Source: Cycloclasticus sp.
GTDB lineage: Bacteria; Pseudomonadota; Gammaproteobacteria; Methylococcales; Cycloclasticaceae
Length of the DNA stretch: 64,000 nt
Assembly: GCA_040743155.1 (NCBI GenBank)
Contig: JBFLJU010000001.1
Coordinates: 1,054,001 to 1,118,000 of the forward strand
Reading direction: 5' to 3'
Shown here: piece after piece, positions 15,633-30,773 of the stretch
Numbering within the stretch: the first letter of the stretch is position 1
How the letters are laid out: each line of letters opens with the position of its first letter
The notes under the pieces: generated by a model
The model's database searches: none
Seen by the model: only the letters and a program-made list of their open reading frames with translations
Told to the model about the DNA's origin: nothing
Translations under genes and position numbers: made by a program

Positions 15633-16412
15633 CTACTCGTCTAACTGTCGCTCTCCGGCATAAGGTACTGTGGCTTCAATATGAGAGTAGATAAACGGTG
15701 CGATTGGGTGTTCTCTTTCTTCGCGAATATGACCCAATAAACCAGCACTACGGGTTACAACGGCGATACCACGCATAACGTCCCAAGGGACGTCTATTTC
15801 AGATAACACCACCGCAATTGCGCCCGTTGCATTGATAGTCAGGTGCTTTCCATAGATGTTATCTACCGCCTCAGACAAGGTGTTTACCACGTCAATATAG
15901 CGTCCTTCTACACCTGCACCACGGGCTATATCAAACAGCCGAGGCGTTCGTGGGTCATCTGGTTTATGGAACGGGTGACCAAACCCCGGTATCGCTTGAC
16001 CTGAATCCTTAAAATCTTGGGCAATACGTATACACGCGGCATCAACGCCCTCTTCTGCCTTTATGATTTCTTGTAAGTTTTTGGCCATCCCCTCCATGGT
16101 ACCCACCAAACCGCTACCAATGCCTTGCAAGCCTGCCGATATAGCTCCCTGCACGGACTCAGGTGCGGCCATAATGGTCAATCGAGTCGCAATAGCACTC
16201 GGCGTTAAACCATGTTCCATAAGAGTGACCAATACCGAGTCAAAGACCGTTATTTCGCCCTCGCTAGGCATGCGCTGCATTAGGTGTAAAAAAAACATCT
16301 CTGTAAAACTGACCTTGCCTATCAGCTCATGAACGAGATCCTTATTTCGTACCAAAATTTGTTGTTCGTTGGTTGTCGAAATTTTAGTTTCTGGTGATAG
16401 TTTTTTAGCCAT
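15633..16412 (-). CDS. Citryl-CoA lyase / citrate synthase-like protein
   Basis: A 259-residue protein matching only the C-terminal catalytic part of citrate synthase. The catalytic signatures are present: MEHGLTPSAIATR, IPGFGHPFHKPDDPR and RSAGLLGHIREERE. At about 260 residues it is far shorter than citrate synthase (~430) and fits the stand-alone citryl-CoA lyase-like group, which cleave or form C-C bonds next to CoA thioesters. It is the last gene of the long leftward ring-opening operon, 65 nt after the DUF35 gene. A role in splitting a 3-hydroxy-3-alkylglutaryl-type CoA ester is plausible but inferred. Confidence 0.8.
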   Translation of the reverse strand: MAKKLSPETKISTTNEQQILVRNKDLVHELIGKVSFTEMFFLHLMQRMPSEGEITVFDSVLVTLMEHGLTPSAIATRLTIMAAPESVQGAISAGLQGIGSGLVGTMEGMAKNLQEIIKAEEGVDAACIRIAQDFKDSGQAIPGFGHPFHKPDDPRTPRLFDIARGAGVEGRYIDVVNTLSEAVDNIYGKHLTINATGAIAVVLSEIDVPWDVMRGIAVVTRSAGLLGHIREEREHPIAPFIYSHIEATVPYAGERQLDE

Positions 16413-16476
16413 TAGAAACTCCTTATTTAGCGTCGTCCTTCGCTCACATTTTAATAAAAAACATGAAAGAGGTTAA

Positions 16477-16896
16477 TTATTCAGTGACCAACTCAAAGCA
16501 AGGCAGATAGCTATCATCCGCGATTTGCACCGTTTTAAGTTTGACTGGAATATCAAAATTCAGCGCATCAAAATCCTTACCGACTAAGGAACTAATCATT
16601 CGCGGGCCTTCTTCTAAATCGATAAGAAGAACGGCGTAAGGTACATCCAGCTTAAAAGCTGGACCTGGCGCACGATGCACAACGCTATACGAATGAATAG
16701 TGCCGCGCCCGCTAGCGGCACGATGTTGTAGATTTTCTGACTGACATTGGCGGCAAATTCGTTGCTGGTAATATTGCACGTGGTCACATTCGCAGCAATG
16801 CTGTAACAACAACTTACCCGTTTTTAAGCCTTCCCAAAATGCCTCGCTATCGCCGTCTGCAATAGGTAATGGTTTTTCTATTGCTTGGCTGTTCAT
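16477..16896 (-). CDS. Zn-ribbon/OB-fold (DUF35) protein, second copy
   Basis: A DUF35 protein of 139 residues with the zinc ribbon CCECDHVQYYQQRICRQCQS and OB-fold strands GRGTIHSYSVVHR and LEEGPRMISSLVG. An extra N-terminal stretch (ADGDSEAFWEGLKTGKLLLQHC) is typical of DUF35 proteins that pair with thiolase-like partners. Its ATG overlaps the stop of the preceding thiolase-like gene (ATGA), a strong sign of co-translation and of a complex. Confidence 0.85.
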   Translation of the reverse strand: MNSQAIEKPLPIADGDSEAFWEGLKTGKLLLQHCCECDHVQYYQQRICRQCQSENLQHRAASGRGTIHSYSVVHRAPGPAFKLDVPYAVLLIDLEEGPRMISSLVGKDFDALNFDIPVKLKTVQIADDSYLPCFELVTE

Positions 16897-18074
16897 AACG
16901 TGCTCTCTGTGCCTAATATAGTGGTTGCTTGTGTTGAAAACCCTGCCCCTAGTGTATGCACTAAGCCATGTTCGGCGCCGCCTACTTGTCGTTCGCCACA
17001 GCTACCACGTAGTTGCCGCACCACTTCAATAAAGTGAAACCAAGCAGCTGGAATACCCGGATGAGCATACGACAACATTCCACCATGTGTATTCGTTGGA
17101 ATTTCCCCGCCATACGTTATCTGGCCAGATTCTACAAAAGCTCCACCCTCACCTTTTTTACAAAAGCCGAGGTCTTCTAACATCATAATGACGGTGCCCG
17201 TAAAGCAATCATAAATACCGGCGACGTCTATATCGTTAGCCGAGATGCCTGCCATATCGTAAGCTTTTTGAGCAGATTGCACGGCACCTGTTTGGGTCAA
17301 ATTAGGCATCAGAAATATGTGCTCGTGGCTGTAATACTCACCACCGCCTAAAATGTAAATAGGCTCGTTTGTATAGTCCCGCGCCCTTTCAGCCGAGGTT
17401 AATATCAACGCCGCCGCGCCATCTGAAATAAGCGAGCAATCTAATTTATGATAGGGCGTGGTAACCATCTTAGAGTTAAGCACATCATCAATTGTTATCG
17501 GATCGATTTTTTGAGCTCCCGGTGTTCGACGAGCGTGTTCTCGAAATGTTACCGCCACCTGTGCAAATTGCTCGGATGTCGTGCCATACTCTTTCATATG
17601 CCGCTGCGCGGTCATCGCAAAGGTATTAGCAACCGGAATACCAAATGGCATTTCGTATTGTTGATCGCGGCTTTCTGTCATGGCTCGAATAGCCATATCA
17701 GGCGTCATGCCGGTTAGTAGACTATCACCACATGCCACTAACACCGTATCCGCGAGACCTGCGTGAATCGCCGCTGCTGCCGTATTAATCGCTGCGCCAG
17801 CTGTTGCACCAGACACTTGCAATGTATTTGAATAGCTCGGTTGTATATTCAAATATTCACTGAGCGCAATACTAAAACGGTGGAACGACGAAGCAAATGC
17901 ATTACCGGTTAAGACGCCATCTATTTCAGATTTATCCATACCCGCGTCGGCGAGCGCTTTTAAAGTTGCATCCGCCGTTAAATCTAATGGACTTCTGCCC
18001 GGTACGCGACCAGAAGGCGACTGCCCTATTCCAACAATGGCGACCTTGCCACGCAATGACCTATTCGTGCGCAT
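16893..18074 (-). CDS. Thiolase-like (SCPx/Ltp type) protein, second copy
   Basis: Thiolase fold of the lipid-transfer branch, 393 residues from the chosen start. It opens VAIVGIGQSPSGRVPGRSPLDLTADA and ends with LSYAHPGIPAAW and HTLGAGFSTQATTILG. At the thiolase nucleophile position it reads QVSGATAGAAI, with no Cys, so like its relative at 11.6 kb it cannot act as a normal thiolase. Paired by overlap with DUF35, it may be a retro-aldolase. The frame is open to 18134, but the ATG at 18074 (or 18080) overlaps the carboxylase stop by a few bases and starts the family's conserved strand, so the shorter form is preferred. Confidence 0.8.
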   Translation of the reverse strand: MRTNRSLRGKVAIVGIGQSPSGRVPGRSPLDLTADATLKALADAGMDKSEIDGVLTGNAFASSFHRFSIALSEYLNIQPSYSNTLQVSGATAGAAINTAAAAIHAGLADTVLVACGDSLLTGMTPDMAIRAMTESRDQQYEMPFGIPVANTFAMTAQRHMKEYGTTSEQFAQVAVTFREHARRTPGAQKIDPITIDDVLNSKMVTTPYHKLDCSLISDGAAALILTSAERARDYTNEPIYILGGGEYYSHEHIFLMPNLTQTGAVQSAQKAYDMAGISANDIDVAGIYDCFTGTVIMMLEDLGFCKKGEGGAFVESGQITYGGEIPTNTHGGMLSYAHPGIPAAWFHFIEVVRQLRGSCGERQVGGAEHGLVHTLGAGFSTQATTILGTESTL

Positions 18075-20052
18075 CGACATCCACAACGATTGCGCCGCGT
18101 GCGACATTATCTCCAGCTTTACAATGAATCCCACTCACAACGCCTGCGTGTATTGCGGCAATTTGTAGCTGCATTTTCATAGACTCCATCACAATTAATA
18201 ATTGCCCAGCCTCCACACTGTCGCCTTCGCTAACGTGCACTTTGATGATTTCACCCATCATAGGTGCTATCACGCTATCATGCCCTTCAGATTCGCCGCC
18301 TTTATCACTCACTACGGGTTTCACCTCAAAGCTTATTTGCTGAGATAAGGTCTGAACGTGGACAGATTCTTCAGTTGCGATAACATGAACTGGCATACGT
18401 ACATTATTGAGTTCAACCAAGTAACCGGCTTCAGAAAACCCGTTTAAGGATAAAGAATACAGCTGCTCATTAACCTTTAACGATATTTCGTTATTTGAAT
18501 TTATCGATAAAAAGGCAATTTTCCACTCGTTCTCAGCCTGTAATAAACTGATCGTAGAAACAGGTGTATCTATCGGTGAATTGAGTGACCACTGGCTAAA
18601 TAAATCGGTTCTTTTCCAAGGGTTTGTAGACCCATTATCACGGTGCTGAAGCATCCATAATGCAGCCGCTATTGCCGCTTGCCTTTGTGCAGTCTCATTA
18701 TCAATATCTTCGTTATAATCCACCAACCAACGATCCAGTGTGCCGGTGTCAATCTTATCGGCGCGCACATCCTTATCGGACACCAGTTGTTGCAAAAATC
18801 GTCGATTATTATCAAGACCGAAAATCATTGTGTCACCAAGACCTTGTTCTAAGCGATCAAGTGCCTGAACACGTGTTTCACCTTCAGCAATTAACTTTGC
18901 AATCATCGGGTCATAATAAGATGACACTTCATCACCACTATCAACCCCCGATTCAATCCTGAGTTGATTTTCCGGAAATTTAATCAGCTCGAGCGTTCCT
19001 GTTGACGGCATAAAGTTTTGTATTGGCGATTCTGCATACAAACGAACTTCAATCGCATGGCCTTTGACTTGAATATCTTGCTGTTCAAAACCAAATCCAT
19101 TTCCATTAGCAATGCTAATTTGCAACTCAACTAAATCTAGCCCAGTAATACTTTCAGTCACTGGGTGCTCAACTTGCAGTCTTGGGTTTACCTCTAGAAA
19201 ATAATGCTCATCACCTAATACTAAAAACTCAACCGTGCCTAAACCTCGGTATTGAATATTTCGTCCAAGGCGACACGCTGCTGACAATAATGATTCTCGT
19301 AAAGTATCACTTAGAAATACCGCTGGCGCTTCCTCAACAACTTTTTGATGTCGTCTTTGTAAGGAGCACTCGCGCTCATATAGGTGTACTACATTGCCCT
19401 CGCCATCACCCGCAATTTGAACTTCAACGTGCCGTGCATTATTAATGCATTGCTCGACGATTAATGAATCATCCGCAAAAGAACGTAATGCTTCACTCAT
19501 CGCTGCATTAATGTTTGTTTCTAAATTATCTAGGTCATTCAATACACGCATGCCCTTTCCACCGCCCCCCGCGGCAGCTTTTAACATCACTGGCAAACGC
19601 ATGCTTTTAACTAAATCAGCAATTATTTTGGGATCATTCAGTTTTCCATCACTACCGGGAATAACCGTAACGTCCGCATTTATTGCTTCTTTCTTTGCGG
19701 CCGACTTATCACCAAAACGACGCAAACTGTCTGCTCGTGGGCCAATAAAAACCAGACCTGCTTGTTCAACCGCATCCGCAAAATATGGGTTTTCTGATAA
19801 GAAACCATAGCCGGGGTGAATCGCATCACAACCTGACTGTTTGGCGGCGTCGATCACCTTATTTATATTTAAATAACTCTCTGAAGCGAGCGCACCACCC
19901 AATGAGATGGCGTGGCCAATTTCTCTAACATGGCGGCTATTCTTATCAGCGGCAGAGTAAACAGCGACTGCATCTATACCCAATTTTTTACAGGTTCGTG
20001 CAATACGGCAAGCAATTTCGCCGCGGTTGGCGATTAAAATTCGTTTTATCAT
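18061..20052 (-). CDS. Acyl-CoA carboxylase biotin carboxylase/BCCP subunit
   Basis: A 663-residue alpha subunit of a biotin-dependent acyl-CoA carboxylase. The biotin carboxylase domain has KRILIANRGEIACRIAR, the ATP-grasp glycine loop KAAAGGGGKGMR and the active-site end EVNPRLQVEHPVTE. The C-terminal biotinyl domain carries the acceptor Lys in VMESMKMQ. Length and layout match the alpha subunits of methylcrotonyl-CoA (LiuD) and geranyl-CoA (AtuF) carboxylases. Its ATG overlaps the stop of the carboxyltransferase gene. The substrate is open; a 3-methyl-branched enoyl-CoA would fit this class. Confidence 0.9.
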   Translation of the reverse strand: MIKRILIANRGEIACRIARTCKKLGIDAVAVYSAADKNSRHVREIGHAISLGGALASESYLNINKVIDAAKQSGCDAIHPGYGFLSENPYFADAVEQAGLVFIGPRADSLRRFGDKSAAKKEAINADVTVIPGSDGKLNDPKIIADLVKSMRLPVMLKAAAGGGGKGMRVLNDLDNLETNINAAMSEALRSFADDSLIVEQCINNARHVEVQIAGDGEGNVVHLYERECSLQRRHQKVVEEAPAVFLSDTLRESLLSAACRLGRNIQYRGLGTVEFLVLGDEHYFLEVNPRLQVEHPVTESITGLDLVELQISIANGNGFGFEQQDIQVKGHAIEVRLYAESPIQNFMPSTGTLELIKFPENQLRIESGVDSGDEVSSYYDPMIAKLIAEGETRVQALDRLEQGLGDTMIFGLDNNRRFLQQLVSDKDVRADKIDTGTLDRWLVDYNEDIDNETAQRQAAIAAALWMLQHRDNGSTNPWKRTDLFSQWSLNSPIDTPVSTISLLQAENEWKIAFLSINSNNEISLKVNEQLYSLSLNGFSEAGYLVELNNVRMPVHVIATEESVHVQTLSQQISFEVKPVVSDKGGESEGHDSVIAPMMGEIIKVHVSEGDSVEAGQLLIVMESMKMQLQIAAIHAGVVSGIHCKAGDNVARGAIVVDVDAHE

Positions 20053-21659
20053 TGTCTAAATACCCCAAAGTTAGTTTCTATTTTGGGAGAACGTCCAGCT
20101 AAATCTAGCAATAAGGCTAAAGCTTCGCGTGTCTCAACGGGGTCAATAACCGCGTCATACCACAAATTAGAGGCAAAGTTATAAGCACCTTCGGAGTCTT
20201 CAAAACGTTTACGATGAGGCGCTTTAAACGTCTCCCGTTCTTCTTCAGTCCAGCTTTTTCCTTCTCGTTTAAGAATATCCTCGCGAACAGTTGCCAAGGT
20301 GTTTGCCACTTGCTCTGGCCCCATAATGCCTGAGCGCCCAGATGGCCAAGCTAACATTGCATTGGGTTTAAAAGGTCGCCCACACATGGCTAAATAACCC
20401 GCGCCGTAAGAACCACCTGTGATTAAGGTGTATTTAGGTACTTTAGCCGAACTCATCGCAGTAATAAATTTTGCACCGTCTTTAGCAATGCCACCTCGTT
20501 CAGCATGTTCACCGACCATAAATCCAGGCACATCGGCAATGAATAACAAGGGGATATCACGCTGGCAACATAAGTTAATAAAGTGTGCCCCCTTCTTCGC
20601 AGATTCGCTAAACATCACGCCATCATTGGCCAAAATTCCAATTTCAAAACCATGGATTTTGGCAAAGCCGCACATTAAGGTGTTACCGTAATTGGTTTTA
20701 AATTCATCAAAATTACTGCCGTCAATCAAGCGTGCCAGTATTTCTCTATTTGCCGTTGGAATTTTTGTGTCTTTATTGATGATGCCGTATATTTCTTCAA
20801 TCGGATACAGCGGCTCTACGGACTTGGCAACATCCCAACGTTGTGTCGGTAGGTTCCCTAAATTGCGTACAATATCTCGAACGATACTTAGGCCATGCGC
20901 ATCGTCTTCAGCGATATGATCTGTAACACCACTGTCACGGCAATGCATTTCAGCACCGCCTAATTCTTCATGACCGACCTGCTCGCCTGTAGCGGCTTCA
21001 ACTAATTGCGGGCCGCCTAAATACATAAAGCCTTTGCCTCGAACGATGACAATTTCATCGCACAATGCTGGAATGTATGCGCCACCAGCAGTTGAAGAGC
21101 CCATAACAATTGAGATTTGAGGAATTCCTTGGCCCGACATTTCAATTTGGTTAACAAAAATACTACCGAACATTCCTTCGTCAGGAAAAATACCTTCTTG
21201 CTCTGGTAAAAAAGCACCGCCACTTTGAACCATCGTGATACACGGCAAGCGATGCTGAATCGCAAACGTTTGTGCTCGCACATGCTTCTTACAGGTCATG
21301 GGGTAATACGTGCCACCTTTGACCGTCGCATCATTCACTATAATCATGCATTGGCGATTATTAATCAGCCCAACACCCGTAATCAAACTTGCGCCGATGG
21401 CGGTGCCTTCTGGCAAGTTATCGCCCGCTAATTCACCCAGTTCAAAGAAGGGTGAGCCGGGGTCTAAAATCAGGCTAATACGATCACGCGGTAATATTTG
21501 TTCTCGATGCTCTGTGTGCCTAAGCTTTGCTTTTTCTGGGCCGCCAAGGTGTGCGCGGTGGCGACGTTCTTGTAGGTCTTTTATTCGCTCCAGATAAAAA
21601 TCTCGGTTAGCCATAAAGCTTTCCGATTGGGTGTTAACGGTACTCTTTAAAATGGACAT
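20049..21659 (-). CDS. Acyl-CoA carboxylase carboxyltransferase subunit
   Basis: A 536-residue carboxyltransferase with both crotonase-like halves in one chain: the N-terminal half (VQSGGAFLPEQEGIFPDE, GSSTAGGAYIPALCDEIV) and the C-terminal half (FIADVPGFMVGEHAERGGIAKDGAKFI, GSYGAGYLAMCGR). Length and the LPEQ/FPDEG motif resemble the beta subunits of methylcrotonyl-CoA and geranyl-CoA carboxylases rather than propionyl-CoA carboxylase. It is followed by its biotin subunit with a 4-nt overlap. Inside an operon for ring cleavage, it may carboxylate a methyl branch to allow later C-C cleavage; this is inferred. Confidence 0.9.
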   Translation of the reverse strand: MSILKSTVNTQSESFMANRDFYLERIKDLQERRHRAHLGGPEKAKLRHTEHREQILPRDRISLILDPGSPFFELGELAGDNLPEGTAIGASLITGVGLINNRQCMIIVNDATVKGGTYYPMTCKKHVRAQTFAIQHRLPCITMVQSGGAFLPEQEGIFPDEGMFGSIFVNQIEMSGQGIPQISIVMGSSTAGGAYIPALCDEIVIVRGKGFMYLGGPQLVEAATGEQVGHEELGGAEMHCRDSGVTDHIAEDDAHGLSIVRDIVRNLGNLPTQRWDVAKSVEPLYPIEEIYGIINKDTKIPTANREILARLIDGSNFDEFKTNYGNTLMCGFAKIHGFEIGILANDGVMFSESAKKGAHFINLCCQRDIPLLFIADVPGFMVGEHAERGGIAKDGAKFITAMSSAKVPKYTLITGGSYGAGYLAMCGRPFKPNAMLAWPSGRSGIMGPEQVANTLATVREDILKREGKSWTEEERETFKAPHRKRFEDSEGAYNFASNLWYDAVIDPVETREALALLLDLAGRSPKIETNFGVFRQ

Positions 21660-21670: not shown

Positions 21671-23059
21671 TTAGGTATTAAGGGTTAAAAACTCAGGCTG
21701 CTCTCGTAACGTAAGCGCTACTTTTGCAACCCCCGGTTTATCAAAACTATTCGCATCAACTATCAATACCTGGGCCTTGAACGACAAAGCATTCTTGATG
21801 GTTGTTTCTATCTGTTTTACAAGCGCACCATCGTCATCTTTGGCCCTCTCAGCTCCTCGCTCAACAATGACTTTGAGATTACGTTGTGTGGTGTGACCTT
21901 CAAAATCAGCAAATACACGCATCACGCCGTTTGTTTCAGGTTGCAACTGAAGCACTAAGTCTTGTATCGCCGAAGGGAAAACATTGATGCCACGCACAAT
22001 TAGCATATCGTCAGTTCGGCCAAAGCAACGTATTTTAGGGCCGGTGCGACCACAGCCACACTCAGTATCTGTCACAATAATATGGTCACCGCTTTTAAAG
22101 CGTACAACGGGCGATGCTTCACGCCCTATCGCGGTATAGACCAACTCACCTGTCACCCCTTTTTCAAAAGCGATTACTTCATTCGTATCAGGGTTAATAA
22201 GCTCAACAATGATGTGGTCTTGGCAAAGCATGTGCATACCATCTTGCTCCGCGCACTCGCCCCAATAGATAACGCCCAAATCGGTGCCACCCATCATTTC
22301 ACATACTTTTGCACCCCAAGCTTGCTCTAGTGCTTCACGAATGGCAGGAATGCCACCACCAGGTTCACCGCCAACTACTAGCTGTTCAACACCTAATTGA
22401 TCGGCTGATATGCCTAAGATATCTTTCGCCATAGAGGCGACGTGCAATAAAAAGTTAGGTGCACCAATTAGCACGCGCGGCTTGGTATCGGCACAAGCAC
22501 GTAGAAGTCGATCCACGCCGCCATCTGCACCAATAGGCACATCAATAGCGCCCATGTATTGAATAGCTTGCAAGCAAGGCACGCCGCCAACAAAACCCTT
22601 GCTCATAGAGAATCCATGCAATACAAAATCCCCCGGGTTGATACCACAGGCATAAAAACCACGTGCGCTGAGTTCATTCCACATCTCAACATCGCTTTCG
22701 GTTAATGCCACATAAGCCGGGTTACCGGTGGTGCCCGATGATGCTTGCATTTGAATAATATCGGCCATTGATGCCGCACGGTGTAAGCCAAATGGTGGCT
22801 CAGCTTGTAGGCTGTCGCGTAAATCTTGTTTTACAGTGAACGGTACTGTCGCCAAATCTTTTAGCGTTTTGATATCAGCAAATTCAATACCTGCTGCGCT
22901 AAACTTCTGTTGGTAAAAGACAGAGTTTTTTGATAAATAAGCCATTTGCTGTCGTAGCTTTTTTTCCTGCAGATCAATAATATCCGCTGATGAACTAACT
23001 TCAATAGGGTGATAGCAGGCCTCCCCCTTTTTACTTATGGCGCGCTCTCGTCTGTACAT
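21671..23059 (-). CDS. PaaK-like CoA ligase (AMP-forming)
   Basis: A 462-residue member of the phenylacetate-CoA ligase family. Visible motifs are the ATP loop ASSGTTGNPAYVALTE, the MGGTDLGVIYWGECAEQDGMH region, the adenylate-binding FGRTDDMLIVRGINVFPSAIQD hinge and a C-terminal small domain. The ~460-residue length, without the long N-terminus of fatty acid ligases, supports an aromatic or alicyclic acid substrate. It lies in the middle of the ring-opening operon, 11 nt before the carboxylase and just after two MaoC proteins, so it could activate the primary acid or a later free acid. Confidence 0.85.
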   Translation of the reverse strand: MYRRERAISKKGEACYHPIEVSSSADIIDLQEKKLRQQMAYLSKNSVFYQQKFSAAGIEFADIKTLKDLATVPFTVKQDLRDSLQAEPPFGLHRAASMADIIQMQASSGTTGNPAYVALTESDVEMWNELSARGFYACGINPGDFVLHGFSMSKGFVGGVPCLQAIQYMGAIDVPIGADGGVDRLLRACADTKPRVLIGAPNFLLHVASMAKDILGISADQLGVEQLVVGGEPGGGIPAIREALEQAWGAKVCEMMGGTDLGVIYWGECAEQDGMHMLCQDHIIVELINPDTNEVIAFEKGVTGELVYTAIGREASPVVRFKSGDHIIVTDTECGCGRTGPKIRCFGRTDDMLIVRGINVFPSAIQDLVLQLQPETNGVMRVFADFEGHTTQRNLKVIVERGAERAKDDDGALVKQIETTIKNALSFKAQVLIVDANSFDKPGVAKVALTLREQPEFLTLNT

Positions 23060-23497: not shown

Positions 23498-23919
23498 GCT
23501 TCTTTCCCCCATATTCGCGTGATCATTCCGCTGGTGATCAATTCTCCTTCTTGATTACGTGTCGTGGTTGTCATTTCTACGTAATTCCGGCCTTTACGCT
23601 CATATAGTTTAAGAACCTGTGCCGAAGTGAATAGTGTTTCACCAATATAAGCTGGTCGGTGGAACTTGAACTGTTGCTTGGCGTGAATGCCGCCGGGGGG
23701 ACCCACCCGTGTACGTAATGCGTCAATCACATACACCGCGGCCAACATAGGTGGTGCTACTGTATTACCCTGCGAATCCTTTACTGTGAGTTGTTTCGTT
23801 CCGTCATTGGTAGATTTAATGTATTTCTCTACGCGCTCCTGAGTCACCTCAAAAGAAGGCACCGGATCAAGAAAATCATCCCCTTCCGACATGCTGCTGT
23901 ATTTCACATAATCGCTCAT
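23494..23919 (-). CDS. FAS1-type dehydratase / MaoC-like protein (hydratase partner)
   Basis: A 141-residue hotdog protein of the N-terminal MaoC (FAS1-like dehydratase) kind: an N-terminal extension (FLDPVPSFEVTQERVEKYIKS), APPMLAAVYVIDALR in the helix region, QFKFHRPAYIGETLFTSAQVLKLYERKGRNYVEM strands. The D-x-N-P-x-H catalytic motif is not present, so it is likely the non-catalytic, substrate-holding half of a heteromeric hydratase with the overlapping MaoC gene downstream. Confidence 0.8.
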   Translation of the reverse strand: MSDYVKYSSMSEGDDFLDPVPSFEVTQERVEKYIKSTNDGTKQLTVKDSQGNTVAPPMLAAVYVIDALRTRVGPPGGIHAKQQFKFHRPAYIGETLFTSAQVLKLYERKGRNYVEMTTTTRNQEGELITSGMITRIWGKEA

Positions 23920-23933: not shown

Positions 23934-24956
23934 TTAATTAGTTTTATATTGGTAAACATCGTCGCCGCTTCGGGATATATCACCGATGGCAATCAAGTAA
24001 TTCAAATGGGCCATTGCTTCGCCAGTCGCCAGCGATAGGTTAAATAAACTCAAACGATTGCCATACAGCTCTTCTATCACCTCAAGACCTGACTTGGTTT
24101 GTTGGCAAAAGTCTCTTAATTGATCTAACGATTTATGGTGCCCTTCTTTGAGTGTTCTTGTGCGTTCTTGCAGCCCCTTAAAGACCCGACCATGCGACGG
24201 CAACACTATTGTTTCGTTATGTAAGGTTGATAAACTACTTAGACTCGCTAAATAATCAGCTAGTGGATTCGCCTCTGCTTCATAAAAATTAACGCTAACA
24301 TTGGGCGAAATATTAGCCAGTACTTGGTCACCCGATATTAATAACTTGCGCTGACGGTTATTTAGGCAAATATGACCAGGACTGTGCCCACTAAATTGCA
24401 ACAAATGCCATGCTTCATCATTAATTGAAAGCGACTCTCCATCGATTAAGCGTTGATATGAAATTGGTGCCTCGGGCACGCCCGTGACATAACCACCAAT
24501 TCTATCTTGTAATTTATTGACCTCTGCTTGAGCTAAGCCAAAGCGTGAAAAGTACTGACAACGTACCGCTTTTTGCTGGCTTGAATAAGTCTGGCACGCC
24601 ATCTGCGTCGTTAAAAACTCGATCTGACTCATGTAAATAGTCGAGTTTGTTTTATGCGCCAACCACTGGGCCATACCCACGTGATCAGGGTGAAAATGGG
24701 TGATCACTATTTTTTGGATAGGTTCATCGTTACAAAAACCAGTTAATACGGCCTCCCAAATGGTTACCGCCTCTTCACAATGAAACCCAGAATCAACAAT
24801 AGTCCAACCGTCACCATCGCGTAATAGCCAAAGGTTTATATGGTCCAAGGCGTATGGTATGGGCATCTTCAATAAGAAAACACCCTCGTCTACCTTCATC
24901 GGTACACCAAACTCAGGTTTAGTAGGAATCGTGTATTGCAGCTTATTTATACTCAA
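23934..24956 (-). CDS. MBL-fold metallo-hydrolase
   Basis: Metallo-beta-lactamase fold hydrolase of 340 residues with a full metal site: HFHPDH (HxHxDH), the third His in GHSPGHICL, bridging Asp in ISGDQVL and a terminal His in LPSHGRVF. A C-terminal helical extension of about 80 residues resembles that of LACTB2/glyoxalase-like hydrolases that act on thioesters. In an acyl-CoA operon a thioesterase or lactonase role is the likely reading. It lies between the two MaoC genes and the PimD-like dehydrogenase subunit with gaps of 14-15 nt. Confidence 0.8.
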   Translation of the reverse strand: MSINKLQYTIPTKPEFGVPMKVDEGVFLLKMPIPYALDHINLWLLRDGDGWTIVDSGFHCEEAVTIWEAVLTGFCNDEPIQKIVITHFHPDHVGMAQWLAHKTNSTIYMSQIEFLTTQMACQTYSSQQKAVRCQYFSRFGLAQAEVNKLQDRIGGYVTGVPEAPISYQRLIDGESLSINDEAWHLLQFSGHSPGHICLNNRQRKLLISGDQVLANISPNVSVNFYEAEANPLADYLASLSSLSTLHNETIVLPSHGRVFKGLQERTRTLKEGHHKSLDQLRDFCQQTKSGLEVIEELYGNRLSLFNLSLATGEAMAHLNYLIAIGDISRSGDDVYQYKTN

Positions 24957-24971: not shown

Positions 24972-26102
24972 TTAGGCTTGACTGAAGCGCTGTAGATGAT
25001 AATCACGATCGCCAAATAAGGCATTCATCATTGTTAACCGTTTTACATAATGCGCCACATCTAACTCATCGGTAACACCAATACCACCGTGTAACTGTGC
25101 GGCTTGTTCACCAACAATTGAACGTGCATCTCCCAAATAAACTTTTGCAGCCGACACACTTTTTGTACGCTCAGCGCCATCACCCTCAGCTACTTTGATA
25201 GCCGCAAGATAAGTAAGCGAACGCATCTGCTCTTCGGTCATGAACATATCCACACAGCGATGCTGAAGTATTTGAAAGTTACCAATTGCCTGATCAAACT
25301 GTTTACGTGTTTTAAGGTATTCGACTGTTTTTTCACGCAGTTGAGTAACAACCCCGACGCCTTCGGCACAAATGGCCGCTGATGCAGCATCAATCACGTA
25401 TTCTATGTCTGAAAAAGCGCCATCTACATCACCAACAAGCGCGTCCATATCAACCATCACATTATCAAATGTCAATTCAGAAGCACGCAAGCCATCAACT
25501 GTTTGGTAATCACGCGAGCTCAAGCCAGCTGCATTTTTATCAACAATAAATAATGAAATACCACTTTCTGTAAAATTGTCGCCACTGGTTCTAGCAGAGA
25601 CAATTATTTTATCGGCGGTTTCTGCGTTAAACACCACGGATTTTGAGCCTGATAGGCAGTATTTTTGACCTTTCTTTTCCGCTGTAAATTCAACATCAGT
25701 CAAGTTATACCGCGATTGACGCTCAACGTATGCGAAGGCTAATTTTAAATTGCCGCCGATAAGCTCAGGCAATAAGGCTTCTTTTTGCTCTTCATTGCCT
25801 GCTCGTTGAATTAATAAACCACCCAACACCACAGAGGCTAAATACGGTTCTACGACAAGACCTTTACCGATCGCCTCCATCACAACAATTAAACCAGTTT
25901 GGCCAAAACCAAAGCCACCGTATTGCTCTTCAAAAGGAATGCCTAGTAAGCCCATGTCAGCAAAATTTTGCCAATTTTCTTCGCTATAACCAACGCCTGT
26001 TTTACTCAACCCTTGACGTGTTTCGAAATCATATTCATTTTGCAAAAACTTATTGACTGAGTCTTGCAACATAACCATTTCTTCAGTAAATTCTAAATTC
26101 AT
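24972..26102 (-). CDS. pimD: PimD-like acyl-CoA dehydrogenase small subunit
   Basis: Acyl-CoA dehydrogenase fold, 376 residues, with the features of the small subunit of pimeloyl-CoA dehydrogenase: LQNEYDFETRQGL, GLLGIPFEEQYGGFG, LVVEPYLASVVLGG, and C-terminal HYVKRLTMMNALFGDRDYHLQRF. It has neither the YEGT Glu nor the alternative Glu in the mid-protein loop (VIDAASAAICAEGVG), which fits a non-catalytic partner in an alpha2beta2 enzyme. It directly follows the PimC-like gene. Family knowledge: PimCD starts beta-oxidation of pimeloyl-CoA and other dicarboxylyl-CoAs after ring opening in Rhodopseudomonas. Confidence 0.8.
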   Translation of the reverse strand: MNLEFTEEMVMLQDSVNKFLQNEYDFETRQGLSKTGVGYSEENWQNFADMGLLGIPFEEQYGGFGFGQTGLIVVMEAIGKGLVVEPYLASVVLGGLLIQRAGNEEQKEALLPELIGGNLKLAFAYVERQSRYNLTDVEFTAEKKGQKYCLSGSKSVVFNAETADKIIVSARTSGDNFTESGISLFIVDKNAAGLSSRDYQTVDGLRASELTFDNVMVDMDALVGDVDGAFSDIEYVIDAASAAICAEGVGVVTQLREKTVEYLKTRKQFDQAIGNFQILQHRCVDMFMTEEQMRSLTYLAAIKVAEGDGAERTKSVSAAKVYLGDARSIVGEQAAQLHGGIGVTDELDVAHYVKRLTMMNALFGDRDYHLQRFSQA

Positions 26103-26119: not shown

Positions 26120-27319
26120 TTAAAAGCCCAACACGGCCTTCGCCATGATGTTCTTTTGAATTTCATTTGAGCCGCCATAAATCGACGATTTGCGCCAGTC
26201 AAGATAATGCGGCGCGAGTACGGATGCTTCTTCTGGGCCAATCGGCGCTTCTTGCCAGCCTTCGGTCATTGACTCTTTTACATAAGGCATTCCAAAATAA
26301 CCTACTGCTTCCATTAATAACGCTGTAATGGCCTGCTGAACTTCGGTCCCTTTAACTTTTAGCAGCGATGATTCTGCACCCGGCGCATCACCCGACGACA
26401 ATTTAGATAACACCCTCATATTGGTCATTTCCAAGGCCATTAGCTCGATTTCCACAGCCGATATTTTCGCTTTGAAATTGGCGTCTTCAATTAATGGTTT
26501 GCCGTTATAACGTTCTTTGGAAGCGAGTTCTTTAAGTCGTACTATTTGCTTCTTCGAACGAGGTACTTGTGCAATATACGTACGTTCATGCATCAATAAT
26601 GATTTTGCTATCGACCAACCTTCGCCTTCCTGTCCGACAAGGTTTTCTACTGGCACTTTCACGTCTTCTAAAAAGATTTGATTAACCACATGCATACCGT
26701 CTACGGTAATAATCGGTGTTGTTGTGACCCCTGGTGAGGTCATATCAATCAGTAGGAAACTAATGCCCTTTTGTTTGCGATCTTCTTGGCTGGTGCGTAC
26801 GAGTGTGAACATCATGTCGGCGTAATGACCATGTGTCGTCCACGTTTTCGAACCATTAACAATGTAGTGGTCCCCATTTCTCTCGGCTTTTGTTTGCAAA
26901 GAGGCTAGGTCCGAACCAGCATTAGGTTCTGAATAGCCTTGGCACCACCAGACATCACTGTTTAATATATCGCCTAAATATTTTTCTCGTTGTTCAACGG
27001 TGCCAAATTTCATTAGCACCGGCGCTAACATCACTAAACCAAAGGCGACTGTTCGTAGGCAATTTGCTGCACCACATTCCTCATCAAAAATATATTTTTG
27101 TACTGGTGTCCAACCTGGGCCGCCATATTCAGCAGGCCAACCTGGCGCAACCCAACCATCTTTGTTAGCCAGTATTTTTTGCCAACGAACATAATCATCC
27201 TTTTTTAGCGCTATACCTTTAGCCACTTTTTGTTGTATATCTTTTGGGTAATTTTCCTTAAGAAAGTCACGTACTTCCAATTGGAAGGCTTTTTCTTCGG
27301 GACTATAATTTAAATCCAT
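26120..27319 (-). CDS. pimC: PimC-like acyl-CoA dehydrogenase large subunit
   Basis: Acyl-CoA dehydrogenase of 399 residues that resembles PimC of Rhodopseudomonas palustris throughout: APGWPAEYGGPGWTPVQKYIFDEE, WWCQGYSEPNAGSDLASLQT, NGSKTWTTHGHYADMMF, and the end KSSIYGGSNEIQKNIMAKAVLGF. The YEGT Glu is Gly, and the likely base is the Glu in LLMHERTYIA. It pairs with the following PimD-like subunit (17-nt gap). It would oxidise pimeloyl-CoA or a substituted diacid-CoA, passing electrons to the ETF encoded at 35-36 kb. Confidence 0.82.
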   Translation of the reverse strand: MDLNYSPEEKAFQLEVRDFLKENYPKDIQQKVAKGIALKKDDYVRWQKILANKDGWVAPGWPAEYGGPGWTPVQKYIFDEECGAANCLRTVAFGLVMLAPVLMKFGTVEQREKYLGDILNSDVWWCQGYSEPNAGSDLASLQTKAERNGDHYIVNGSKTWTTHGHYADMMFTLVRTSQEDRKQKGISFLLIDMTSPGVTTTPIITVDGMHVVNQIFLEDVKVPVENLVGQEGEGWSIAKSLLMHERTYIAQVPRSKKQIVRLKELASKERYNGKPLIEDANFKAKISAVEIELMALEMTNMRVLSKLSSGDAPGAESSLLKVKGTEVQQAITALLMEAVGYFGMPYVKESMTEGWQEAPIGPEEASVLAPHYLDWRKSSIYGGSNEIQKNIMAKAVLGF

Positions 27320-27378: not shown

Positions 27379-27981
27379 TTATTTTTTTGCCACCATATTG
27401 ACCTGCAATGCAGGCCTGTTTTGTTCTTTTTCCGTTAACGGTTCGACACGCTTAAGTGTGGATTTACACCGTTCAACCAACTCGTGATAACACCTTGTAC
27501 CCGCCTTTTTCCATTCGATTTCTTGACTCGACAGTTCTCGTACTACACGCGCCGGAATGCCAGCTACAAGGGTGTTTGCTGGGACTTGTTGACCTGTTTT
27601 CACAAATGCCATCGCGGCCACTACACTATTTTTTCCAACGAACGACTCATCCATCACCACTGCATTCATTCCGACTAATACGTTTGTATCTAATTGCGCA
27701 CTGTGCACCACAGCACCATGACCAATATGCCCCCAAGCACCAACAATGGTAGGAATGCCGGTCATACAGTGAAGTGTGCAGTTATCCTGAATATTCGAGC
27801 CTTCACCAATTTCAATAGCAGCCATATCGCCTCGAAGGGCAACATTTGGGCCTATATAACAATTCGCGGCAATGGTTACATCACCTATTACAACCGCACT
27901 CGAATCAACAAACGATGACGGATGGATGACCGGTATAACGCCATCTATAGCAAATACTTGAGGCTGCGATACTTTTTCCAT
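27379..27981 (-). CDS. Gamma-carbonic-anhydrase-like hexapeptide protein (PaaY/CaiE type)
   Basis: Left-handed beta-helix protein of 200 residues with hexapeptide repeats (VIGDVTIAANCYIGPNVALRGD, IEIGEGSNIQDNCTLH, TIVGAWGHIGHGAVVHSAQL) and His residues at the metal-ligand positions. The C-terminal helix (CYHELVERCKSTLK) and length match PaaY and CaiE rather than plain carbonic anhydrases. PaaY is a thioesterase that relieves dead-end ring-CoA esters in phenylacetate catabolism. A similar rescue role beside BadI is inferred; it lies 2 nt after the badI stop. Confidence 0.78.
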   Translation of the reverse strand: MEKVSQPQVFAIDGVIPVIHPSSFVDSSAVVIGDVTIAANCYIGPNVALRGDMAAIEIGEGSNIQDNCTLHCMTGIPTIVGAWGHIGHGAVVHSAQLDTNVLVGMNAVVMDESFVGKNSVVAAMAFVKTGQQVPANTLVAGIPARVVRELSSQEIEWKKAGTRCYHELVERCKSTLKRVEPLTEKEQNRPALQVNMVAKK

Positions 27982-27983
27982 TT

Positions 27984-28766
27984 TTATTGGCTGTACTGAC
28001 GAAAATCAGGTTTACGTTTTTCGTTAAACGCCTTAACGCCTTCTTGGGACTCCTCTGTGTTGTAGTACAACTGAAGGGTCTGAATACCCAACGATGAAAT
28101 ACCACGAATGCTCTCGCTGTCTGCATTAAAAGAGCGTTTTGCAATAGCCAACGCGGTTGGGCTTTTTTCCATGATTTCATCACACCACTTCTGCACTTCA
28201 TCTGCCAGTTGTTCATGTGGCACAACCTTGTTTATCAAGCCCATTTCTAATGCTTCTTGTGCGGAATATTTTCGGCACATATACCAAATTTCACGCGCCT
28301 TCTTTTCGCCAACAACTCGCGCCAAATAGGCCGTGCCATGCCCTGGGTCAACTGAACCTACTTTAGGCCCTACCTGACCAAAGACCGCTTTTTCAGACGC
28401 AATCGTCATATCACAAATAGTCGCCAAGACGTTACCACCACCAATGGCATAGCCTTGGACCATGGCAATTACTGGTTTTGGCGCATCACGCAAAATCGTT
28501 TGTAATTCTTCAATAGGTAAACCAATCATGCCTCGTCCGTCATATTGGCCCTCATGAGCACTTTGGTCGCCGCCCGTACAAAAAGCTTTATCACCCGCAC
28601 CTGATAAAACGATAACGCCAATACTTTTATCCCAAGCCGCTTTCGTTAGTGCATGGATGAGTTCTTCGCAGGTAATACCTCTAAACGCGTTATATACTTC
28701 GGGGCGGTTAATGGTGACGTATGCTGCACCGTTTTTAACTTCATACGTAATGTCCTGATAATCCAT
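27984..28766 (-). CDS. badI: 2-ketocyclohexanecarboxyl-CoA hydrolase (BadI)
   Basis: Crotonase-fold ring hydrolase of 260 residues. It is very close to R. palustris BadI: NAFRGITCEELIHAL, FCTGGDQSAHEGQYDGRG, VQGYAIGGGNVLATICD, FGQVGPKVGSVDPG, EKKAREIWYMCRKYSAQEA, and the same length. BadI adds water across the ring C-C bond of 2-ketocyclohexanecarboxyl-CoA, giving pimeloyl-CoA. The related MenB differs in the N-terminal NAFRG-TCEEL region and would need a menaquinone operon, which is absent. Neighbours (AliB-like dehydrogenase, crotonase, PimCD-like enzyme) complete the pathway; the BadH-like step is encoded 24 kb away at 51.6 kb. Confidence 0.88.
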   Translation of the reverse strand: MDYQDITYEVKNGAAYVTINRPEVYNAFRGITCEELIHALTKAAWDKSIGVIVLSGAGDKAFCTGGDQSAHEGQYDGRGMIGLPIEELQTILRDAPKPVIAMVQGYAIGGGNVLATICDMTIASEKAVFGQVGPKVGSVDPGHGTAYLARVVGEKKAREIWYMCRKYSAQEALEMGLINKVVPHEQLADEVQKWCDEIMEKSPTALAIAKRSFNADSESIRGISSLGIQTLQLYYNTEESQEGVKAFNEKRKPDFRQYSQ

Positions 28767-28802
28767 TCTTTGTTCCTTAATCTATTGTTAGTTTTTATAA
28801 AA

Positions 28803-29594
28803 TTAGCGTGATTTAAAAACTGGTTCGCGGCGCTCATTAAAGGCCGCAAGCCCTTCTTTCACATCCCCACTTTTCAAACCCCTAACAGCTTCATTTTGTT
28901 CTAATTTGAGTGCGCTTTCTAAGGGTAGATCAACGCCAGAATACGCAAGGTCTTTCATCATTCCGAGGCCTTCTGCACTCTTAGAAGCGAGCAAATGGCA
29001 ATATTCAAGTGCTTTATCACGTAACTCATCGGCAGGCGCTAAGTAATTCACCATGCCCCATTGTTGCGCCTCTTTAGCCTTTAAACGGCGACCGGACATC
29101 ATTAAATCTAAGGCTCGACGAAAGCCAATAATTCTGGGTAATCGCTGACTTCCACCCCAACCAGGAATCAAGCCGTAATTCGCGTGTTGATCGCCGAATA
29201 CGGCATCATCTGCTGCAAATATAAGATCACAACCAAGCGATATTTCCAAACCGCCAGCCAAACAAAAGCCTTGCACAGCACCAACCACAGGCAGCGATGT
29301 TTGTTCAAAACCCGCACATGTTTTATGTCCCAGTTCGACAAAGAACTGCAATGCATCTTTATCATCAGCCTGTATGGTTGTTTGCACTTCATCTAGATCC
29401 GCACCAGTACAAAAATGTTTACCCTCTGAGCACAATAAAATAGCGCGAACCTCTGGGTTCTCCTCATGCGCCAGCAGAGCATCTTGCAACCCTTGATGGA
29501 CCTCCATCGATAAGCAATTAAATTTATCCGCCCTGTTTATGATGATTAAGCCAACATGGCCTTCAGTTTTTGAAATAACTACATTTTCTGACAT
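28803..29594 (-). CDS. Crotonase-family enoyl-CoA hydratase/isomerase
   Basis: Crotonase-fold protein of 263 residues with the oxyanion-hole motifs FCTGADLDEV and LAGGLEISLGCDL. The first catalytic Glu (GGLEIS) is kept, but the position of the second Glu of classic hydratases reads GDQHANYGLIPG, where His replaces it. It may therefore be an isomerase or a specialised hydratase. Its place between the AliB-like dehydrogenase and BadI makes it the natural candidate for hydrating cyclohex-1-ene-1-carboxyl-CoA (BadK-like step), though the altered active site leaves this uncertain. Confidence 0.78.
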   Translation of the reverse strand: MSENVVISKTEGHVGLIIINRADKFNCLSMEVHQGLQDALLAHEENPEVRAILLCSEGKHFCTGADLDEVQTTIQADDKDALQFFVELGHKTCAGFEQTSLPVVGAVQGFCLAGGLEISLGCDLIFAADDAVFGDQHANYGLIPGWGGSQRLPRIIGFRRALDLMMSGRRLKAKEAQQWGMVNYLAPADELRDKALEYCHLLASKSAEGLGMMKDLAYSGVDLPLESALKLEQNEAVRGLKSGDVKEGLAAFNERREPVFKSR

Positions 29595-29618
29595 TAGGTT
29601 TCCTAATATTCTATTTAT

Positions 29619-30773
29619 TTAATAAGGTACGCCGTCGCGACCAATCTTTTCACGCGCGATAATGATTTTTTGTATTTGTGATGTGCCGTCACCAATTTGT
29701 AGCCCCAATACATCACGCAGCCGTTGCTGAATTGGGTAATCCTTACTGTAGCCACCGTGCCCATGGGCTAGCAAACAATTATGAATAATTTCAAATGATA
29801 CTTTTGGTGCCCACCATTTACACATTGCTGCCTCTGCTGTGTGCGGCTTACCTTGGTCTCTTAACCATAAGGTTTTGTAACAAAGTAGCTTAGCGGCTTC
29901 AATAAAGGTTTCTGCCTCTGCCAACGGGAAACTAACGCCTTCAAACTTAGATATTTTTTTCCCAAATGCCTCTCGTGTACTCACCTGATCCCAAGCTTCC
30001 TCAACAGACACTTTGGCTGCTGCTAAGCATTCTAGTCCTATCAACGCACGGCTATAATCGAAGCCTTGCATAACCTGAATAAAACCAAGTCCTTCTTCAC
30101 CAAGAATGTTTTCAGCAGGCACTTCAACGTCATCAAAAAACAAAGACCCGCGGCCAACAATAGATTCGCCTAAATCATCAAAGTGTGTCCGCTCAATTTT
30201 TGGGTTATCTAGCGGTACCAAAAAGGCCGACACACCTCTAGCTTTCTCCTCAACCGTACCTGTTCTAGCGAACACAACCGCCACATCGGCCTGGGCTGCG
30301 ACAGAAATAGATGTTTTCTCACCATTAAGTACGTATACATCGCCTTTCCGCTCGGCCTTTAGTTTTAGGTTAGCCGCATCTGAACCGGCACTCGGTTCTG
30401 TTAGTGCAATTGCGCATAACGCTTCACCAGCTATAATTTTAGGGATCCATTTATTGGCTAAATGTGGTGCAGCAAACTTTTCAATAATGCCACCATTCAA
30501 ACCAGCCAGTATCTGTACGTATGCAACATTAAAATCTGCACGAGCAATTTCTTCTGTAATAAGGCCGGCGGTGACATAACCCAATTCAAGCCCGCCATAT
30601 TTTTCAGAAAGCTCCGCACCAATCAAACCAAGCTCCCCCATTTCTTTTAACATGGAGCGGTCAAAAGCATGCTTGCTATCGTTATTTTGATATTCTGGAA
30701 ATAACTTATCTTCGGCAAAACGACGAGCCGTTTCTTTAATGGCTAACTGCTCTTCCGACCAACTAAAATCCAC
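29619..30773 (-). CDS. AliB-like acyl-CoA dehydrogenase (cyclohexanecarboxyl-CoA dehydrogenase candidate)
   Basis: Acyl-CoA dehydrogenase of 384 residues from the GTG at 30773, which has AGGAG six bases before it; an in-frame ATG at 30779 lies directly against that AGGAG, too close to use. Family motifs are IALTEPSAGSDAANLKL and VLNGEKTSIS. The catalytic YEGT loop reads QIGDGTSQIQKIIIAREKIG, so Asp replaces Glu, and the alternative Glu site is Ser (FDYSRALIG). It is the first gene of the ring-opening operon, and a role in desaturating cyclohexanecarboxyl-CoA fits the order dehydrogenase, crotonase, BadI. Confidence 0.78.
   Translation of the reverse strand: MDFSWSEEQLAIKETARRFAEDKLFPEYQNNDSKHAFDRSMLKEMGELGLIGAELSEKYGGLELGYVTAGLITEEIARADFNVAYVQILAGLNGGIIEKFAAPHLANKWIPKIIAGEALCAIALTEPSAGSDAANLKLKAERKGDVYVLNGEKTSISVAAQADVAVVFARTGTVEEKARGVSAFLVPLDNPKIERTHFDDLGESIVGRGSLFFDDVEVPAENILGEEGLGFIQVMQGFDYSRALIGLECLAAAKVSVEEAWDQVSTREAFGKKISKFEGVSFPLAEAETFIEAAKLLCYKTLWLRDQGKPHTAEAAMCKWWAPKVSFEIIHNCLLAHGHGGYSKDYPIQQRLRDVLGLQIGDGTSQIQKIIIAREKIGRDGVPY

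Follow-up and report, generated by a model that had tools for sequence, protein, structure and literature searches.

Why should an operon for opening the cyclohexane ring also encode a biotin-dependent carboxylase and an aldolase? The question is raised by a locus of Cycloclasticus that lies in the 64,000-nucleotide stretch of DNA analysed here (the window; bases 1,054,001-1,118,000 of a 2.56 Mb genome in a single contig). Its 15 open reading frames are all on the minus strand and form one run from 15633 to 30779, in which neighbouring frames are separated by at most 64 bases or overlap by at most 74. The leftward fifteen-gene operon given in a preliminary description of this DNA is thereby borne out, save that its right end is 30779 and not 30773, and so, by family-profile searches, are the families assigned to its products. 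The gene order is not due to chance, since it recurs in other Cycloclasticus genomes, with protein identities of 52-96% gene by gene, lowest for the metallo-beta-lactamase-fold protein (MBL). The answer favoured here, tentatively, is that the carboxylase and the aldolase belong to a cassette that would act before ring opening, on the beta-blocked side chain of an alicyclic acyl-CoA, and so feed BadI. Each of the enzyme classes concerned is known; in the accessible open-licence literature, no description was found of their combination, of a third group of carboxylases, of the interchange of 3-hydroxy-3-methylglutaryl-CoA (HMG-CoA) lyase with a Sal-type aldolase, or of the shared palindrome.

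The ring-opening genes are readily recognized. An AliB-type cyclohexanecarboxyl-CoA dehydrogenase (29619..30779) scores 588.5 bits against TIGR03207, over the equivalog cut-off of 575.35, and BadI, the 2-ketocyclohexanecarboxyl-CoA hydrolase (27984..28766), scores 476.4 bits against TIGR03210 (equivalog cut-off 467.6); the best matches of BadI in named genomes, at up to 96%, are mostly metagenome-assembled genomes of Cycloclasticus. PimC-like (26120..27319) and PimD-like (24972..26102) acyl-CoA dehydrogenases follow, and their best family matches fall below the respective cut-offs (TIGR03204, 459 against 623.85 bits; TIGR03203, 403.1 against 652.7 bits). The bad-ali pathway of Rhodopseudomonas and Aromatoleum sp. 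CIB (PMC9795900) is alike in its AliB, in a BadI over the cut-offs and in the pimelyl-CoA dehydrogenase family that follows, whereas the operon described here has no gene matching AliA or BadH. The word carboxylase does not occur in the text of the Aromatoleum sp. CIB paper (PMC9795900). In an unrooted tree of 29 sequences, the operon AliB groups with seven of 10 plain bad-ali AliBs (support 0.998), and the AliBs of cassette regions group with the AliB-like gene of locus L144 (0.985, or 0.774 with Polaromonas). From this grouping, the Cycloclasticus operon seems to join a true cyclohexanecarboxylate (CHC) block to the cassette.

The carboxylase consists of a carboxyltransferase (CT; 20049..21659), recognized by PF01039 and by its position in a tree, and a biotin carboxylase with a biotin-carrier domain (BC; 18061..20052), recognized by family match. 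Three CTs of full-length type are encoded in the genome, in addition to two shorter matches to PF01039. One, of methylcrotonyl-CoA carboxylase (MCC) type, lies in a separate cluster, L143, with an acyl-CoA dehydrogenase, HMG-CoA lyase and 3-oxoacid CoA-transferase, and is taken as the leucine MCC. Another lies in L144 with AtuA, a hydratase and an acyl-CoA dehydrogenase; its best match is geranyl-CoA carboxylase (GCC), and it shares 42% identity with the operon CT. In an unrooted tree of 14 sequences, six operon CTs and the CT of genome G587 split from MCC and GCC together with a support of 1.000 (MCC group, 0.966; GCC group, 1.000). The sequences are few, the MCC side being represented by PaMCC, AccD1, liu and 9tps, with PDB chains copied from alignments, and the tree is evidence of a separate group rather than of a function. 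The division is also seen in two motifs: FLQN of MCC, FLQN or FLHN in GCC, is F-x-A-D in the operon and G587 copies, and GAGN is GAGY. In the first CT copies of the second family described below, the A-D pair is found in 20 of 21 and V-D in the remaining one.

The operon CT is thus not a plain leucine methylcrotonyl-CoA enzyme, which settles one half of what the preliminary description had named as counting against its reading: the MCC-type cluster with HMG-CoA lyase is at L143, and the operon CT groups elsewhere. It is not a geranyl-CoA carboxylase either, as the GCC-type CT belongs to the atu-type cluster L144. Propionyl-CoA carboxylase (PCC) is ruled out by the bit scores, which for full-length chains deposited as PCC beta are about 180-245, whereas MCC-type chains reach 490-611 and GCC 424; 9tps was deposited as a PCC beta subunit, yet it scores 610 bits and groups with PaMCC in the tree. 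The atu-type cluster (1119-1129 kb of G000; L144:1043-11242) also encodes a ligase like AliA (614 bits) and a dehydrogenase like AliB (476 bits). The view of the preliminary description that the carboxylase and aldolase part is superfluous for plain CHC degradation, and is linked to genes for alicyclic acids, is supported.

The aldolase and the cassette beyond the genus

After the carboxylase genes lie a thiolase-fold protein (LTP; 16893..18134) and a DUF35 protein resembling the C-domain of ChsH2 (16477..16896). The best PDB matches of LTP are 4u4e, 9myr and Ltp2 (6ok1). In the bile-acid aldolase Sal, as far as the accessible text of its description goes, Tyr302 and Cys304 of a YDCY motif are the catalytic pair, and a glycine replaces the thiolase nucleophile (PMC12329534). 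The operon LTP reads YDCF and, matching CtSal, has a glycine in the column of the nucleophilic cysteine. YDCF is retained in all eight LTPs whose sequence covers the motif (one from the window, six from the genus and one from G029; a ninth was excluded, its stretch ending before the motif) and in 21 of 21 second-family LTPs, and GVYDCF is the form found in most of 15 aldolase proteins. The term 'Cys-less' given to this protein previously therefore holds for the nucleophilic cysteine, which is glycine, but not for the cysteine of YDCF, which is present in 8/8. In the DUF35 partner, CxxC-x10-CxxC is conserved in 9/9 proteins, and corresponds to the C4 set of ChsH2 type and not to the C3H1 set of Shy. 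From these residues, LTP and DUF35 are predicted to be a Sal-type retro-aldolase with a zinc-binding DUF35 partner. The true start of LTP is probably some 20-25 codons inside the called reading frame, and the overlap of -74 bases is probably a start-site artefact of this gene, since the alignment of orthologues is reliable only downstream of about residue 20-25, and in some of them stop codons precede this point.

The steroid side-chain aldolases Sal-Shy and Ltp2-ChsH2 (PMC12329534, PMC12502768) share the thiolase fold and the glycine in place of the nucleophilic cysteine. The YDC motif is common to Sal and the four-cysteine DUF35 to ChsH2, and the operon also contains a pair of MaoC hydratases. 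The operon aldolase differs in being paired with a biotin carboxylase; in neither paper do the words carboxylase or biotin appear (PMC12329534, PMC12502768). The liu and atu pathways are alike in their two-subunit biotin carboxylase, hydratase and cleavage of a 3-hydroxy-3-substituted acyl-CoA. Their cleavage is of HMG-CoA-lyase type, and plasmid relatives of the cassette share with them an HMG-CoA-lyase gene after CT-BC. The operon departs from both pathways in its third-group CT, in a thiolase-fold aldolase with DUF35 replacing the lyase, and in its linkage to AliB and BadI.

These plasmid relatives come from a search with the CT, in which 39 records matched at E<=1e-180 with identities of 60-80% throughout; 21 are from Pseudosulfitobacter, seven from Sulfitobacter, three from Roseibium, two from Sagittula, and one each from Polaromonas, Roseovarius and four further genera. 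Five regions were read, and each has an AliB-family dehydrogenase with the cassette and an HMG-CoA-lyase gene after CT-BC, at the position of LTP-DUF35. On plasmids of Sulfitobacter, Roseovarius, Roseibium and Pseudosulfitobacter, the order is AliB, crotonase (ECH), acyl-CoA dehydrogenase, PaaK, CT, BC, HMG-CoA lyase, short-chain dehydrogenase/reductase (SDR), citryl-CoA-lyase-like protein (CCL) and acyl-CoA dehydrogenase, with identities to the operon of 61-63% for PaaK and 52-54% for ECH; the PaaK-like acyl-CoA ligase of the operon (21671..23059) is 63% identical to the ligase preceding CT in Sulfitobacter. PimC and PimD are not the best match of any gene in these four alphaproteobacterial regions. 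In Polaromonas JS666, where PimC/PimD relatives reach 37% and 29%, the order is AliB-ECH-CT-BC-HMG-CoA lyase, with a second aldolase pair and a dehydrogenase divergent (LTPb, 74%; DUF35b; ACADb, 71%). The operon crotonase (28803..29594) probably belongs to the carboxylase cassette rather than being BadK, given its 52-54% identity to the ECH after AliB in all five regions. Furthermore, HMG-CoA lyase occupying the place of LTP-DUF35 is the strongest indication from sequence that the aldolase may cleave a product of the carboxylase of 3-hydroxy-3-substituted glutaryl-CoA type.

Chromosomal relatives are fewer. LTP was searched for in 301 genomes of the order, and relatives at E<=1e-60 occur in G029, of another family, and otherwise within the genus, where 14 genomes have them. 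In the phylum sample, 29 of 398 genomes have matches at E<=1e-70, and close copies, the source genome aside, are found only in G587 (73%) and G541 (60%). In the second family, that of G587 and of another class, LTP is present in 30/391 genomes at E<=1e-130 (69-74%). In all 21 of these 30 loci that were read, LTP, DUF35, CT (64-67%), BC (45-47%) and the ligase occur together; an AliB-family neighbour (58-64%) is found in 15/21 and a BadI relative (46-47%) in 4/21, and no PimC/PimD-like gene at >=36% in any of the 21. In the four BadI relatives, VGSPAGG replaces the VGSVDPG of BadI, and their chemistry may differ from that of BadI. In L166, a BadH-like SDR (42%) directly follows BC. A second CT copy (63-64%) lies on the opposite strand between DUF35 and a dehydrogenase at L163:7669-9270, and also in L164, L165, L168 and L169; five copies in the scan read LVDVSGFM, and most first copies ADVTGFM. 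In the family of G541, LTP occurs in 1/397 genomes. At its locus (L150:13261-19902), the genes for a Sal-type aldolase, DUF35, CaiB and an acyl-CoA dehydrogenase run divergently to that of a BadI relative (46%); this is possibly a version for acids already bearing a second carboxyl group.

The last gene of the operon, CCL (15633..16412), scores 301.7 bits against NF004868. The earlier assignment as citryl-CoA-lyase-like is sustained in so far as this exceeds the subfamily cut-off of 193, but it is qualified by a Thr or Lys in place of the Asp of 6hxp: the NVDGAIA of 6hxp is NATGAIA or NAKGAIA in all five genus copies, and the position is Thr in the three plasmid copies aligned. We take this Asp to be the catalytic residue of citryl-CoA lyase. 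Orthologues of CCL are present in the four alphaproteobacterial plasmid operons and in 5 of the 18 genus genomes, including G001, which is without the cassette, and none is found at the cassette loci of G007, G011, G014, G015 and G029. This occurrence in 5/18 and in cassette-free G001 rules out CCL as an obligatory part within the genus.

Occurrence within Cycloclasticus and a shared palindrome

Among the 18 genus genomes, BadI orthologues were found in nine, counting G013 (66%, a partial match where the contig ends, with CT on the same contig) and leaving out matches of 45-49% in G006, G007 and G014. An orthologue of the operon CT is present in seven (>=86%; 95% but partial in G009), and G014, with BC, LTP and DUF35 on a broken contig, is the eighth carboxylase genome. 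The carboxylase thus occurs in 8/9 BadI genomes and 0/9 others (one-sided Fisher test, 2e-4, not corrected for kinship), G004 being the only BadI genome of the genus without it. In G001, a single contig, the locus lacks AliB, ECH, BadI, PaaY, PaaK, CT, BC, LTP and DUF35 and retains PimC-PimD-MBL-MaoC1-MaoC2 and CCL; BadI, operon-type CT and LTP were not found anywhere in this genome. The locus of G016 lacks BadI, PaaY, PaaK, CT and BC, while ECH, LTP, DUF35 and CCL remain and AliB is a remnant with stops (L129:8700-9150), so that it looks like a pathway under dismantling. Together, the joint presence and loss in the 18 genomes and the loci of G001 and G016 reveal that ring opening and the carboxylase are gained or lost together within the genus.

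Second loci in G006 and G007 (L133:6445-10541 and L134:6395-10514) carry consecutive genes for an AliA-like ligase, a thiolase-like YDSF protein, DUF35 and a member of the BadI/MenB family. This last protein falls below the cut-offs of both the MenB and the BadI model, with a slightly better score for MenB, and is missing the BadI Asp; the L133 row lies near a GCC-type cluster.

The operon and other genes of the window also have a possible regulatory element in common. An operator-like palindrome, CTAACAATTGTTAG (30831..30844), lies between AliB and a divergent PrpD-family gene. A second site, ATAACAACTGTTAG (11123..11136), is at the divergent start of an old yellow enzyme gene and of the gene cluster to the left of the operon, and a weaker one, CTAACATTCATTAG (36438..36451), with two mismatches to CTAACAnnTGTTAG, is upstream of etfB. 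Searched with 3 mismatches, the first pattern, CTAACAATTGTTAG, is found 6 times against 4.5 expected, a number in keeping with chance. The pattern CTAACAnnTGTTAG, loosened at two middle bases after the genus orthologues had been viewed, occurs at <=1 mismatch twice in the window against 0.14 expected, and none of 100 shuffles reaches two. Counts within the genus are therefore not independent of the loosening, whereas those of the second family and the plasmids are. At this threshold, the palindrome is found at the operon promoter in 9/9 scanned loci that include this promoter (the window, seven of the genus and G029), and at the left-cluster promoter in six of seven, the seventh having two mismatches. 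All 21 second-family loci contain it, with 67 sites in 417,921 bases and none within a mapped gene; 18 loci have a perfect copy, and 13 of the 67 sites have no mapped gene start within 450 bases. It also precedes AliB in 5/5 plasmid regions, in one with a mismatch.

By contrast, none is found in 1,301,783 bases from 71 BadI loci in other genera (stretches of <=10 kb on each side), nor, at <=1 mismatch, in the LTPb-type and more distant loci L152-L154 or the G541 aldolase locus (L150, L151). The BadR operator of bad-ali, as given in the accessible part of its description, is CAAN4TTG (PMC9795900), as compared with CTAACAnnTGTTAG here. Within Cycloclasticus, a perfect copy also stands at the divergent promoter of the L144 atu-type cluster (L144:11294), and L133 has the palindrome three times. 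Further sites are at L143:17022, L183:15219 and L123:9302. The neighbouring TetR-family regulator (32369..32980, minus strand), relatives of which at 37-38% occur in 6 of the 21 second-family stretches, is probably the reader of the palindrome. The palindrome provides a DNA marker for locating the regulon in other genomes.

Proposed substrate and order of steps

The proposed pathway may be outlined as follows. The operon would comprise two blocks under one palindromic operator, probably TetR-read. The ring-opening block would be AliB, BadI and then the PimC/PimD-like proteins, and CHC, the odd-chain product of alkylcyclohexanes, would enter via AliB. The other block would carboxylate, hydrate and cleave, by means of ECH and/or the MaoC pair, the PaaK-like ligase, the third-group CT/BC, and LTP with DUF35. 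MaoC1 (23494..23919; PF13452) is probably the non-catalytic half of a two-subunit hydratase, with a weak likeness to HadA (NCBIfam HadA at 3e-6; among PDB profiles, 5cpg is first at 6e-6 and HadA is at 0.23). MaoC2 (23063..23512; PF01575) is probably the catalytic half, of HadB type (PDB matches include HadB at 3.5e-10), and its DxNPLHxD is presumably the catalytic hydratase motif. Beta-oxidation would be blocked where the beta-carbon is a branched ring carbon and hydration yields a tertiary alcohol; carboxylation, hydration and retro-aldol cleavage could then convert cyclohexylacetyl-CoA to 2-oxocyclohexanecarboxylate. Because the aldolase would release acetyl-CoA and leave a free keto acid, a ligase would be needed, and CoA ligation would make the BadI substrate. 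We infer the substrates, the order of steps and the regulator alike from sequence. In a broader form, which is offered as a possibility and with less assurance, the third biotin-dependent gamma-carboxylase and the thiolase-fold retro-aldolase would together form a bypass, independent of oxygen, for rings whose side chains are beta-blocked, carboxylating the ring carbon beside the side chain and leaving 2-oxocyclohexanecarboxylate; the operator-marked cassette would have spread among proteobacteria, many of them marine, with aldolase and HMG-CoA lyase as interchangeable cleavage modules.

The preliminary description had placed the carboxylase after ring opening: BadI would open 2-alkyl-cyclohexanecarboxyl-CoA to 3-alkylpimelyl-CoA, PimCD dehydrogenate it, CT/BC carboxylate the branch, MaoC hydrate, and the aldolase or CCL cleave. 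The order of the genes (BadI-PimC-PimD-MBL-MaoC-PaaK-CT-BC-LTP) speaks for this scheme, all of its chemical steps are allowed, and the co-loss with BadI fits it equally. It is nevertheless the less supported placement and is considered improbable, as the cassette travels with AliB-family genes (15/21 and 5/5), while PimC/PimD-like genes are absent from the 21 second-family loci and are not the best match in the four alphaproteobacterial plasmid regions; PimCD-MaoC also persist without the carboxylase at the G001 and G004 loci, and 4-alkyl acids of perillate type would need no carboxylase. The company of AliB and the absence of PimCD would place the cassette before ring opening more naturally, without amounting to proof, and this placement explains why the cassette is found beside AliB-family genes and not beside PimCD. 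Alternatively, the cassette might carboxylate the beta-methyl group of a methyl-branched, isoprenoid or terpenoid side chain, as GCC does, and shorten it to CHC-CoA for AliB and BadI, serving acyclic or other isoprenoid acids where BadI is lacking. MCC and GCC relatives carboxylate beta-methyl-enoyl-CoA, which favours this alternative, as do the plasmid cassettes with HMG-CoA lyase and no BadI in the regions read (several records being from diatom or dinoflagellate cultures) and the palindrome of the neighbouring AtuA/GCC cluster. In Cycloclasticus, however, it is BadI that is tied to the carboxylase, and an atu-type isoprenoid cluster is already in the genome; the alternative is judged unlikely, though less so than carboxylation after BadI. 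Finally, a plain CHC operon whose carboxylase, aldolase and ligase merely share its transcript would account for G004 and for the 71 BadI loci mapped in other genera, where the cassette is missing, but it is very improbable in view of the joint presence and loss, the palindrome common to several lineages and the conserved cassette.

Several observations weigh against a cassette that acts before BadI on a ring substrate. Plain CHC breakdown may be complete in the genome, as a plausible BadH and an AliA-like ligase are present: the best BadH candidate scores 217.9 bits against a cut-off of 431.2 and is 43.5% identical to a BadI-linked BadH (a BadI-linked control, at 410.8, is also below), and the best AliA-like ligase, outside the operon, scores 613.7 against 792.3 (control 748.7, also below). 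PimCD, MaoC1/2 and CCL are retained in G001 although BadI and the carboxylase are gone, so that they are independent of both and have another role. No BadI relative at >=44% was found in the stretches read from the five plasmid regions and 17 of the 21 second-family loci, and a ring substrate is not certain outside Cycloclasticus, since the four BadI relatives there are without the BadI Asp. In G541, the aldolase (60%) is accompanied by neither carboxylase nor palindrome in the stretches read. Furthermore, the accessible text of the open-licence literature does not link Cycloclasticus to growth on cyclohexylacetate or CHC.

As for the substrate, the 'undescribed aerobic route for substituted alicyclic acids' suggested earlier is too broad, because BadI-type routes are already on record, going by the accessible parts of two papers: one was predicted in Cupriavidus gilardii for 4-methyl-CHC (PMC4547698), the other proposed in Castellaniella for perillyl-CoA (PMC4109377). 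By our chemical reasoning, 4-alkyl-CHC would already bear the carboxyl group that the carboxylase would add. The mrc monoterpene island of Castellaniella defragrans is alike in a BadI-like MrcE, two MaoC proteins (MrcG, MrcH) and an annotated citrate lyase; in the available portions of its description, no atuC/atuF homologue is reported in the genome, and the island table is without an acyl-CoA carboxylase (PMC4109377). A Castellaniella-like perillate route was rejected for the operon, as a 4-substituted ring needs no carboxylase. A parallel in chemistry, with intermediates through which the proposed scheme would pass, is anaerobic naphthalene degradation (the thn pathway), in which, according to the accessible text, 2-carboxycyclohexylideneacetyl-CoA and its tertiary alcohol occur and the lyase has not yet been identified (PMC11659651). 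Its cyclohexylideneacetyl-type intermediates likewise carry a ring carboxyl group and a tertiary alcohol, but there the carboxyl is what the opening of the first ring has left, and no carboxylase introduces it at that step (PMC11659651).

Cycloclasticus is a marine degrader of polycyclic aromatic hydrocarbons, and would gain a role with cycloalkanes beyond these. In the accessible parts of the respective papers, seven oil-degrading strains in culture were found to form cyclohexaneacetic acid from even-numbered alkylcyclohexanes (PMC10837267), and a naphthenic-acid study of 2015 calls the pathway in a cyclohexylacetate-degrading Cupriavidus largely unknown (PMC4547698); the open-licence literature, to the same extent, describes no carboxylase-aldolase route for alicyclic acids and no work on BadI of Cycloclasticus. 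The operon supplies candidate genes for a route of cyclohexylacetate type, predicts a third acyl-CoA carboxylase specificity and suggests a form for the naphthalene-pathway lyase that acts on tertiary alcohols.

Remaining and neighbouring genes

Two further operon products are possible thioesterases: the PaaY/CaiE-like hexapeptide protein (27379..27981), which scores 254.3 bits against TIGR02287, below the cut-off of 319.6, and has no match in some relatives retaining BadI, and MBL (23934..24956; PF00753). Upstream of the operon, an electron-transfer flavoprotein (ETF)-ubiquinone oxidoreductase and EtfA/EtfB (32983..36399, minus strand) are likely electron acceptors for the acyl-CoA dehydrogenases. 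The left cluster (11196..15612, plus strand) encodes DUF35b, LTPb, a CaiB-type CoA transferase, an FMN reductase and an acyl-CoA dehydrogenase. LTPb, of the second aldolase pair in the window, reads YDAF; it is 74%, and the dehydrogenase 71%, identical to genes divergent from the Polaromonas JS666 AliB operon.

The MmgE/PrpD-family protein at 30923-32311 of the window scores far below the true PrpD cut-offs, has its palindrome promoter in common with AliB and is retained in relatives; a second MmgE/PrpD protein adjoins the Roseibium operon (L190). At 50981-57131 of the window, the genome's best BadH candidate (51592-52404) is clustered with a CitE/RipC-like lyase, a MaoC-type hydratase, an acyl-CoA dehydrogenase and a crotonase.

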